Below, in pieces: positions 4,269 through 25,450 of a stretch of DNA of 32,432 nucleotides. The notes below the pieces were generated by a model. That model saw only the letters and a list, made by a program, of their open reading frames with translations. It had not been told where the DNA came from and made no database searches. Positions within the stretch are counted from its first letter, which is position 1, and the number at the start of each line of letters is the position of its first letter. This DNA comes from Clostridia bacterium (GTDB lineage: Bacteria; Bacillota; Sulfobacillia; RBS10-35; JAJYVM01): the NCBI GenBank assembly GCA_027314765.1, contig DAHVAF010000252.1, positions 1 through 32,432 on the forward strand, given 5' to 3'. A program made the translations under genes and the position numbers.

Positions 4269-5127
4269 GGCGAATCAGTGGGCGCAGGGCATCCGCCAGG
4301 GCTTCGACCGTGACGATGCCCGCGGGCAGGCGCAGGCCCCGCGCCCGCAGGGACTGCGCCATCTGGGCGGCGGGCGGCAGGTCCAGGCCGGGATGCTCGC
4401 GGGTGAAGACATCGGCCGGCGCGGCGTCGTCGACGATGCGCCCGCCCTGCATCACAATAACCCGCTCCGCCAGCGCGGCCTCCTCCATGTAGTGCGTGAT
4501 GAGCACCACCGTCATGCCCCCGGCGTGCAGCCGGCCGAGCACCTCCATGACCTCCTGGCGGCCGTCCGGATCCAGCATCGCCGTGGGCTCATCCAGCACG
4601 AGGATGCGGGGCTGCATCGCCAGAGCGCCCGCAATGGCCACCCGCTGCTTCTGGCCGCCGGAGAGCTTGTCCGGGGCATGGCGGCCGAAGGCGCCCATGC
4701 CGACCGCAGCCAGGGCGGAGTCGACGCGCTGCTTGATGAGCAGGGGCTCGATCCCCAGGTTCTCCGGCCCAAAGGCGACGTCGTCCTCGACGATGCTGGC
4801 CACAATCTGATTGTCGGGGTTCTGGAACACGAGGCCAACCCGGCGGCGGACCTCCCAGCGGGCCTCCGGATCGGCGGTGTGCAGGCCATCCACCAGCACG
4901 CGGCCGGACGTCGGCAGCAGCAGCCCGTCCAGCAGCCTGGCCAAGGTGGACTTGCCCGAGCCGTTGGCGCCGACCACGGCCACGAAAGCCCCCGCAAGGA
5001 CCGAGAGGCTGAGCCCGCTGATGGCGGGCTCGCCGTCTCCGTACGCGAAGGTGACGCCCTGCAGATCCAGGATGGGCGACTGAACGGCGCTAGACGAGCT
5101 CGATATAGACGACGGGCGCGCCGTCAC
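4258..5127 (-). CDS. ecfA1: ECF transporter ATP-binding protein EcfA1
   Basis: First ATPase of the ECF core. From the chosen start the protein is 289 residues with Walker [10 protein letters not shown] (53-61), Q-loop FQNPDNQ, signature LSGGQ (155-159) and Walker B ILVLDEP (175-181). The conserved domain begins at [12 protein letters not shown], for which no ATG, GTG or TTG exists close by. The nearest in-frame candidate is GTG at 5127, preceded by AAGGGG, and this overlaps the 3' end of rplQ by 38 bases. It adds a Ser-rich leader unlike other EcfA1 N-termini. An ATC start nearer the domain is an alternative. The gene identity is firm; the start is not. Confidence 0.9.
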
Positions 5128-5425
5128 CGACCCGGGTCCCCTTGCGGATGATGCGCGTGTAGCCGCCGGCCCGGTCGCCGTAACGCGGCCCGAGGGTGCT
5201 GAAGAGCTTGCTGACCACGTCCTCATCCCGGATGACAGACAGCGCCTGGCGCCGCGCGTGCAGATCCCCGCGCTTGGCCAGCGTGATCATGTGGTCGGCC
5301 AGCCCCCGCAGCTCCTTGGCCTTGGCCTCGGTCGTGACGATGCGCTCGTGGCGCAGAAAGCTCGTCACCTGGTTGCGGAACAGGCTCTGCCGGTGGTCGG
5401 TCCGGCGGCCCAGCTTGCGATACAA
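5090..5425 (-). CDS. rplQ: 50S ribosomal protein L17
   Basis: L17, 111 residues, lies near the peptide exit region of the 50S subunit. The sequence [20 protein letters not shown] followed by [10 protein letters not shown] and [14 protein letters not shown] is diagnostic. Homologs start with M-(G)-YRKLGR, which here falls on a TTG codon at 5425 preceded by GGAGGAG with nine bases spacing; longer in-frame starts are unsupported. It follows rpoA, as in nearly all bacteria. A structured 90-base gap separates them. Confidence 0.95.
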
Positions 5426-5450
5426 GAGCGTCGTCTCCTCCACCACAGAA

Positions 5451-5508
5451 GCGACGGCAGATGCCTCCACGCATGGCCCGCGCCATCCGTGGCCACGGGT
5501 GCCGTCGC
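5451..5508 (-). promoter_or_regulatory. predicted three-way-junction RNA element between rpoA and rplQ
   Basis: In the mRNA, GCGACGGCA (5500-5508) pairs perfectly with TGCCGTCGC (5451-5459). The enclosed bases form two hairpins. One is GCC-ACGGAU-GGC (5482-5493), supported by a flanking CCCG/CGGG pairing. The other is AUGC-GUGGAG-GCAU (5461-5474). The fold ends about ten bases before the rplQ Shine-Dalgarno sequence, so it could control rplQ translation or rpoA/rplQ mRNA processing. Both loops expose GGA. No known leader family is recognised. Confidence 0.45.
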
Positions 5509-5515
5509 CCAAATG

Positions 5516-6463
5516 CTACTCTTCGGACGCCTTCAGGGCCAGGCCGAACTGGGTCAGCTTCTCCTCGACCTCTTCGAGCGACTTCCGGCCGAGGTTTCGG
5601 ACCTTCATCATGTCCTCGGACGTCCTGTTGGTCAGATCGCCGATCGTGTTGATGCCGGCCCGCTTCAGGCAATTGTAGCTGCGGACCGAGAGGTCCAGCT
5701 CGTCGATCGACATCTCCAGCAGGCGGTCGCGCTCGTCCTCGGGCTTGCTCGCCATCATCACGGCGCCGTTGCCGCTCTCCGTGAGGCCCACGAACAGCGC
5801 CAGATGCTCGGAGAGGATCATGGCGCCGCGGCTGGCGGCCTCCTCGGGCCGGATCGTGCCGTTCGTCCAGATCTCCAGGGTCAGCCGGTCGTAGTTCGTC
5901 ACCTGGCCGACGCGCGTGTCCTCGATCGTGTAGTTCACGCGCCGGATGGGCGTGAAGATCGAGTCCACCGGGATGACGCCGATGGGCTGGTCGGGGCGCT
6001 TGTTGCGGTCGGCCGGGACGTAGCCGCGGCCCTTCTCGACCGTCAGCTCCGCGAACAGGCGCGCGTTCTTGTCCAGGGTGGCCAGGTGCAGATCCGGGTT
6101 CAGGATCTCGATGTCGGGGCCGGCCTTGATGTCGGCGGCCGTGACCTCGCCGCTGCCCTCCGCCTCCAGGCGCATGACCTGGGGTTCGTCCGTGTGGACG
6201 CGGATCGAGAGCTCCTTGAGGTTCAGGATGACATCCGTGACGTCCTCCATGACGCCGGGGATCGTGGAGAACTCATGCAGGACGCCGTCGAAGCGGACTG
6301 AGGTCACCGCCGCGCCGGGGAGCGAGCTGAGGAGGATGCGGCGAAGGGAATTGCCCAGGGTCGTGCCGTAGCCGCGCTCAAGCGGCTCCACGACGAAGCG
6401 GCCGTAGCGACCGTCCTCGCTGCGCGCCACGCACTCGATCGTGGGCTTTTCCATCTCCAGCAT
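5516..6463 (-). CDS. rpoA: DNA-directed RNA polymerase alpha subunit
   Basis: The 315-residue alpha subunit nucleates RNA polymerase assembly and contacts UP elements and activators. The N-terminal domain (about 1-230) contains [20 protein letters not shown] and [20 protein letters not shown]. The C-terminal domain holds [19 protein letters not shown] and the helix-hairpin-helix-like [18 protein letters not shown]. The ATG at 6463 matches the family N-terminus ([10 protein letters not shown]) and has GGGAGGG upstream; an in-frame TTG further up is not needed. Length is as expected. The 199-base gap before it (6464-6662) has only weak GC stems and no promoter that I can defend. Confidence 0.97.
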
Positions 6464-6662
6464 GGAATGCTGAACCCTCCCCTGGGACAGCAGGTGAGCA
6501 GCCCCTCCGGGAACGCTGGCCAGGACCTGCGTCAAACGGATCTACCCCCTCTGGCTTACCGCCACCGCGCCTTCCGCCCGTGAGGCTGAAAAGCCGCGCC
6601 ACGATGCAGCCGCCGCCGTGGGGCCGCGTGCCCCGCGGAGGTGGTGGGAGCCAAGTTCGCTC

Positions 6663-20634: not shown

Positions 20635-20708
20635 GACCGCACCCCGCAAACATGGACGTTGGAGGCCATGCCCTGACACCCCGGAGACCCGGACGTCGGA
20701 GGCGATGC
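20635..20708 (-). repeat. 37-bp imperfect tandem repeat abutting the rplC start
   Basis: Two 37-base units lie head to tail, 20672-20708 and 20635-20671; the second ends at the base before the rplC ATG. Shared blocks are GCATsGCCTCCrACGTCC at the start of each and CGGGGTG near the end. About 27 of 37 positions agree by eye. Each unit contains the GGGGTG that serves as the rplC ribosome-binding site, so the duplication copies that signal. Confidence 0.6.
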
Positions 20709-20716
20709 TGGACGCA

Positions 20717-21022
20717 TCAAAGCTTGATCTCGATGTCGACGCCGGCCGGCAGGTCGAGGCGCATCAGCGCGTCGACCGTCTTCGGCGTGGGATCGAGGAT
20801 GTCGATCAGCCGCTTGTGCGTCCGCATCTCGAACTGCTCGCGGATGTCCTTCTCGCCGTTTGGCGCCGTGAGGACCGTGTAGATGCTCTTCTCGGTTGGC
20901 AGGGGCACGGGTCCGGCGACCTCCGCCCCCGTCCGGCGCGCCGTCTCGACGATCTTGCCGGCCGAGGCGTCCAGGATGCTGTGATCGAAAGCGCGCAGCC
21001 GAATGCGGATCTTCTGTGCCAT
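20717..21022 (-). CDS. rpsJ: 30S ribosomal protein S10
   Basis: S10, 101 residues, a 30S head protein also known as NusE in antitermination. [37 protein letters not shown] and the C-terminal [15 protein letters not shown] are consensus. ATG at 21022 with GAGGGGA upstream. It starts the S10 section, 163 bases after tuf. That gap contains a perfect GC hairpin and one ANGGAU hairpin. Confidence 0.97.
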
Positions 21023-21063: not shown

Positions 21064-21131
21064 TGCCCCTGCCTTGCCAAGGTCCATCGGGTCCTTCGGA
21101 ACCGTCCTGGTCGGCGCGGACTGCGTCCGGC

Positions 21132-21157
21132 AGGCCTGGCGCCATCCTTGGCTCCGG
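21132..21157 (-). repeat. dispersed ANGGAU hairpin repeat in the tuf-rpsJ gap
   Basis: The core GCC-AAGGAU-GGC at 21141-21152 can fold into a three-pair stem with a six-base loop. The copy extends to about 25 bases shared with the element at 25325-25349 (one gap and two mismatches by eye). It lies about 30 bases after the tuf stop. Confidence 0.55.
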
Positions 21158-21185
21158 GCGCGCGCCGTCACAAACGCGCTCTGGG

Positions 21186-25237: not shown

Positions 25238-25344
25238 GCCATCCGTGGCTTCCGATAGCCGCGCCATCCGTGGCAGAAACATCCACGCCAGGACTTCGCC
25301 ATCCCTGGCAGAAGCATCCGAGCTAGGCCTTCGCCATCCCTGGC
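25238..25344 (-). repeat. array of four GCC-ANGGAU-GGC hairpins in the rpsL-rpsG gap
   Basis: Four copies of a 12-base inverted repeat lie at 25333-25344, 25298-25309 (both GCCAGGGATGGC), 25263-25274 and 25238-25249 (both GCCACGGATGGC). The first two belong to a 35-base tandem unit with about 30 of 35 matches. Between them lies a second weak stem, GAAG...CUUC in unit one and GAAG...UUUC in unit two, whose pairing is kept by a G-U change; its loop also holds GGAUG. The array ends eight bases before the rpsG ribosome-binding site. The loop motif matches the CsrA/RsmA consensus CARGGAUG. Confidence 0.6.
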
Positions 25345-25450
25345 TCCGGATCATGGGCAGCGCTTCGCGCTCCCCACTTCTTGCAGCGCTTCCCACCCCA
25401 ACCAGCCGCGGCGGCTCGTCGGGGACCCCGGGAGCCACCCAGCCAGCTCG

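Follow-up and report, generated by a model that had tools for sequence, protein, structure and literature searches.

The folded RNA between rpoA and rplQ contains one copy of a genus-specific dispersed two-hairpin repeat

What is the structured segment that separates rpoA from rplQ, and does it serve rplQ in particular? The question arises from a sequence-only reading of the window (the whole 32,432-nucleotide stretch of DNA analysed here), which described a closing stem around two hairpins in this gap and took the structure for a translational control element of rplQ. Overall, that interpretation was partly supported. The structure was recovered, whereas the proposed dedication to rplQ did not find support.

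A folded RNA in the rpoA-rplQ gap

The element lies on the minus strand, which is the coding strand of both rpoA and rplQ. The features of this region are as follows.

5516 to 6535, minus strand: rpoA, RNA polymerase alpha (Pfam RNA_pol_A_bac, RNA_pol_A_CTD, RNA_pol_L)
5518 to 5516, minus strand: rpoA stop codon TAG, 7 nt 5′ of the closing stem
5500 to 5510, minus strand: 5′ arm of the closing stem (P1), GGGCGACGGCA, from the sequence; pairs with 5449-5459, the two outermost pairs being G-U
5460 to 5498, minus strand: copy of the dispersed core repeat, CCGNAGCCANGGATGGC-linker-NTGCNNGANGCAN; model match at 5458-5501 with 51.7 bits
5482 to 5493 (read 5493-5482), minus strand: hairpin A, GCC-ACGGAU-GGC, from the sequence; its loop is ANGGAN family-wide
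5461 to 5474 (read 5474-5461), minus strand: hairpin B, AUGC-GUGGAG-GCAU, from the sequence; its outer pair covaries across the family
5449 to 5459, minus strand: 3′ arm of the closing stem, TGCCGTCGCTT, from the sequence and the comparison with G001
5090 to 5425, minus strand: rplQ, ribosomal protein L17 (Pfam Ribosomal_L17); probable start codon TTG at 5425-5423

The perfect nine-base-pair closing stem that had been read around the loops ACGGAU and GUGGAG is exactly present on the minus strand, where GCGACGGCA (5508-5500) pairs with TGCCGTCGC (5459-5451). It reaches 11 base pairs when the two outer G-U pairs are counted. The element is placed 7 nt past the rpoA stop codon and about 8 nt 5′ of the rplQ Shine-Dalgarno sequence, GGAGGAG, which itself stands about 9 nt 5′ of the TTG codon. 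With this sequence upstream, the TTG start assigned to rplQ is plausible, and both are identical in the sister species.

The 90-nt minus-strand region was predicted to fold at -46.9 kcal/mol (z = -3.25), and 1 of 200 shuffled sequences was equally stable. In the single-strand fold, the closing stem paired with a probability of about 1.0. The two-hairpin interior described earlier fared less well at this site, since it loses to one long hairpin, CCACG.AUGGC-GCGG-GCCAU.CGUGG. The total energy is -41.1 kcal/mol with the long hairpin and -25.4 kcal/mol in the two-hairpin form (P ~4e-12), a difference of about 16 kcal/mol, as compared to 11 in the sister species. The rplQ ribosome-binding site is not clearly covered by the predicted fold. 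Rfam covariance models gave no match to the element, either at the gathering score or at E <= 1.

The sister species, G001, is the sole other genome of the genus. Its rpoA-rplQ gap retains the element, and the sequence outside the element is identical. Within the closing stem, 4 of the 11 pairs showed double compensatory changes (Watson-Crick in both species), 1 changed from G-C to G-U and none was broken. The core differences between the two species are all in the linker, in the loops or immediately flanking the hairpin stems; they are confined to variable positions and both hairpins are intact. At a second orthologous locus (L196/L210), the closing stem has 9 pairs, of which 3 carry double compensatory changes and none is broken. 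The covariation at rplQ is suggestive of maintained pairing, short of a phylogenetic test because two genomes give one comparison. Since the fold is more stable than nearly all its shuffled counterparts and compensatory changes occurred in the sister species, the structure goes beyond chance, and a folded RNA between rpoA and rplQ is confirmed. The rpoA-rplQ gaps of the other inspected members of the order contained no such element, and an order-wide rplQ leader was rejected on this ground.

A dispersed repeat family

A DNA search with the gap sequence returned partial copies elsewhere in the same genome (G000), and the family was searched with a covariance model built from eight copies. There are at least 100 copies in G000 and at least 121 in G001, both numbers being lower bounds obtained from 150 candidates scored per genome. 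The 19 other order and class members gave 0-10 weak matches each. When 250 genomes of the phylum were drawn, matches at E <= 1e-5 were found in the genome studied here and in none of the 249 others. The core at rplQ is therefore one copy of a genus-specific dispersed repeat. A REP-like two-hairpin repeat family in an uncultured Bacillota genus is new to the record.

Alignment of the copies defined a core of about 38 nt with sharp ends and with flanks that carry little information. Its consensus reads CCGNAG-CCANGGANGGC-linker-NTGC-NNGAN-GCAN-TC. Directly 5′ of the first hairpin stands a tag, G[GTC]AG, which is GGAG or GCAG in most copies (order G>C>T at the second position). About 110 of the 124 copies examined lie outside predicted genes and 14 lie inside. 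With neighbours called by a simple codon-score gene finder, the nearest genes were 108 sense and 94 antisense. This random orientation rules out a strand-biased leader or terminator element. The in-gene copies were antisense in 11 of 14 cases, and one antisense copy (L017, G000:C291) lies within a predicted transporter gene with the reading frame preserved.

Further copies occur in the window itself:

21118 to 21160, minus strand: second copy, tuf-rpsJ gap, within the closing stem CGGCGCG/CGCGCCG
20678 to 20720, plus strand (opposite strand): third copy, rplC-rpsJ gap, with hairpin A stem GAC/GTC
25238 to 25352, minus strand: array ahead of rpsG, in which B-like hairpins are interspersed among four A hairpins

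The array holds its four A hairpins in about 110 nt and adjoins the rpsG ribosome-binding site on the 5′ side; its best full match is 25309-25352, with 30.4 bits. The link that had been drawn between this array and the rplQ element is correct, because both are composed of one common repeat unit. As to the shared factor proposed for the two sites, conservation of loop A as ANGGAN would allow one, only if it reads the whole family.

The rplC-rpsJ copy is absent from the orthologous gap in G001, which is an empty site, and several orthologous loci differ through tandem expansion or replacement. Because of the empty site, these locus differences, the mostly intergenic placement and the balanced orientation, the core behaves as a DNA repeat, unlike a leader RNA. 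Head-to-tail tandem expansions were observed at L218 (G001:C522), L231 (G001:C443), L328 (G001:C116) and L289 (G001:C307), with a period of about 28-33 nt and orthologous loci of unequal length.

Conserved hairpins and closing stems

Though the long hairpin is the lowest-energy interior at rplQ, pairing across copies rules out one long palindrome as the conserved family form. Among 115 distinct copies, the two-hairpin form had 97.3% of cells paired and the long hairpin 66.7%. At the outermost pair of hairpin B, 104 of these copies are complementary (CG 42, AT 33, TA 16, GC 13), and none of 2000 shuffles showed covariation as good. Judged from these alignments, it is the two-hairpin form, not the long hairpin, that is conserved across the repeat family.

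The stem of hairpin A is mostly GCC/GGC, with GGC/GCC and GAC/GTC occurring too. Of 102 copies picked via hairpin B alone, 85 had an intact A stem, and the ANGGAN loop on a 3-bp, C-G closed stem was displayed by 78 of these 85. Conservation reaches 96-100% at loop positions 1, 3, 4 and 5 (A, G, G, A), whereas positions 2 and 6 vary freely. A search artefact does not readily explain this contrast, since changes at position 2 cost about as much in the seed model as changes at its neighbours, although it was with this model that the loci had been retrieved. Loop B reads NNGAN, and GGA is often missing from it.

An uninterrupted closing stem of at least 7 bp was found at the core boundary in 21 of 124 copies, whereas 5.4 were expected from swapped flanks; stems of at least 9 bp occurred in 7 copies (0.9 expected). 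At shifted boundaries, used as a control, stems of at least 7 bp numbered 2-9. Such stems belong to a subset of copies and the flanks are low in information, which rules out a closing stem as a component of every copy. Within the subset, 13 of the 21 copies have a stop codon, on one strand or the other, no more than about 45 nt away, and a TTTG/TTTT/GTTGG motif stands just 5′ of 10 of the 21, as compared to 11 of the 103 other copies. Comparison with the sister species indicates that some closing stems, at least, exist as hairpins independently of the core, because the tuf-rpsJ gap of G001 (L230) has a plain 9-bp hairpin, GCGCCGGCG-GCTCG-CGCCGGCGC, without the core. The sequence of its stem is unrelated to that in the genome studied here.

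Origin and possible role of the element

The element in the rpoA-rplQ gap is probably a stop-proximal intercistronic hairpin whose loop bears one REP-like repeat of about 38 nt, with a general role instead of that of a switch specific to rplQ. The family is called REP-like because its copies are numerous, sharply bounded, for the most part intergenic, found in either orientation and present or absent at orthologous sites. Like REPs, or GTAG-tagged palindromes (PMC3733652, PMC2817692), which measure 20-40 nt, exceed 100 copies per genome and are mostly extragenic, the repeat forms hairpins behind a short unpaired 5′ tag, with some copies in genes and some near stop codons. REPs are however single palindromes with an unpaired GTAG or CGTC tag and are associated with a RAYT (Y1) transposase, whereas here two short hairpins stand in tandem, most tags are GGAG or GCAG, and the repeat, so far a feature of one Bacillota genus, was observed as stand-alone copies or head-to-tail arrays. 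The elements mobilised by RAYTs, REPINs among them (PMC3116915), are likewise short dispersed repeats that are non-autonomous, end sharply and are polymorphic for presence or absence; a REPIN is an inverted REP pair, which the repeat described here is not.

No match to the RAYT/Y1 transposase (Y1_Tnp, PF01797) was obtained in either genome of the genus, G000 being 88% complete and G001 85%, and this candidate was rejected as the mobiliser. The family might still be of the classical REP/REPIN type, its mobilising RAYT having escaped the draft assemblies, as its 38-nt length, its more than 100 intergenic copies and a G[GTC]AG tag comparable to the GTAG of REPs (PMC3733652, PMC2817692) could suggest. 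Considering the negative search at this level of completeness, the scarcity of GTAG among the tags and the two short hairpins in place of a single palindrome, we regard this as unlikely. In either case the repeat would spread as DNA, presumably through a machinery that reads its hairpins.

The conserved loop raises another possibility. RsmE binds an ANGGAN loop, which is also found, as a short-stem hexaloop form, among CsrA SELEX ligands (PMC7652899). Hairpin A might accordingly be a CsrA/RsmE site, and its sense copies would put mRNAs under CsrA or titrate CsrA. As in the known targets (PMC7652899), the stem is short, the loop is an ANGGAN hexaloop in 78 of the 85 stem-intact copies and the two variable positions match; the genome also encodes CsrA (72 bits; L028, G000:C95). 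However, unlike CsrA/RsmE targets, the repeat occurs in both orientations, its neighbours do not favour the transcribed strand (the rplQ copy itself being sense) and the in-gene copies are mostly antisense. Moreover, the loop of the second hairpin is NNGAN, often without GGA, and loop A is not displayed in the lowest-energy rplQ fold. CsrA as the general function of the family is disfavoured because of the absent strand preference and the predicted rplQ fold, and we hold this reading to be improbable. There is a similarly slim chance that mobile DNA seeded more than 100 consensus CsrA loops genome-wide, including before rplQ, rpsJ and rpsG, where the array would offer four sites; the fixed A, G, G, A with two free positions would then be the mark of CsrA. 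Through the ANGGAN loop, a connection of mobile repeats with CsrA becomes directly testable.

A dedicated leader RNA controlling rplQ translation, as in the sequence-only reading, would resemble ribosomal-protein leader RNAs in being a structured RNA between ribosomal operon genes. A location downstream of rpoA and ahead of the rplQ ribosome-binding site, the weak TTG start and the closing stem covarying in G001 are all consistent with it. In contrast to such leaders, the element is not specific to ribosomal-protein genes: an identical type of core is found at more than 100 sites, in both orientations and mostly between unrelated genes. Its absence between rpoA and rplQ in the other inspected order members, the lack of an Rfam match and a ribosome-binding site not clearly sequestered also argue against this reading, which we consider very improbable. 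The element is unlikely to be a switch built specifically for rplQ.

The hairpin could also be neutral, that is, decaying mobile DNA with a stem kept perfect by mutation and not by selection. Template switching in replication can create perfect hairpins and maintain them with no selection acting on the RNA (PMC8794818). The change in the rplQ stem partly resembles a block change (GACGG to GGACG) transferred from one arm to its partner, which template switching can yield (PMC8794818), and a strand bias is not needed for function. Against this, changes in the rplQ core touch variable positions only and leave both hairpins intact, and the L196/L210 pair shows three separated single-base compensations. 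We judge a neutral origin possible, though rather unlikely.

If the stop-proximal hairpin bearing a REP-like repeat is functional, we infer that in the rpoA-rplQ mRNA it may protect the end of the upstream message or slow terminating ribosomes. In E. coli, according to a study cited in PMC12306157, REPs can reduce translation when they stand less than 16 nt past a stop codon; by analogy, the position of the rplQ element, 7 nt past the rpoA stop, would fit such an effect. The family is notable for its two-hairpin body, for the absence of a detectable RAYT and for occupying the loops of hairpins near stop codons, with stems that covary between the species. It offers a natural case for testing how such repeats disperse when no RAYT is present, and whether selection or template switching accounts for compensatory changes.

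GC-rich intergenic hairpins without the core were also observed in G000 and G001 (for example L198, L238 and L291), often with TTTG on their 5′ side. A few of them have GTTCCCGG on their 3′ side. They possibly represent a second repeat family.
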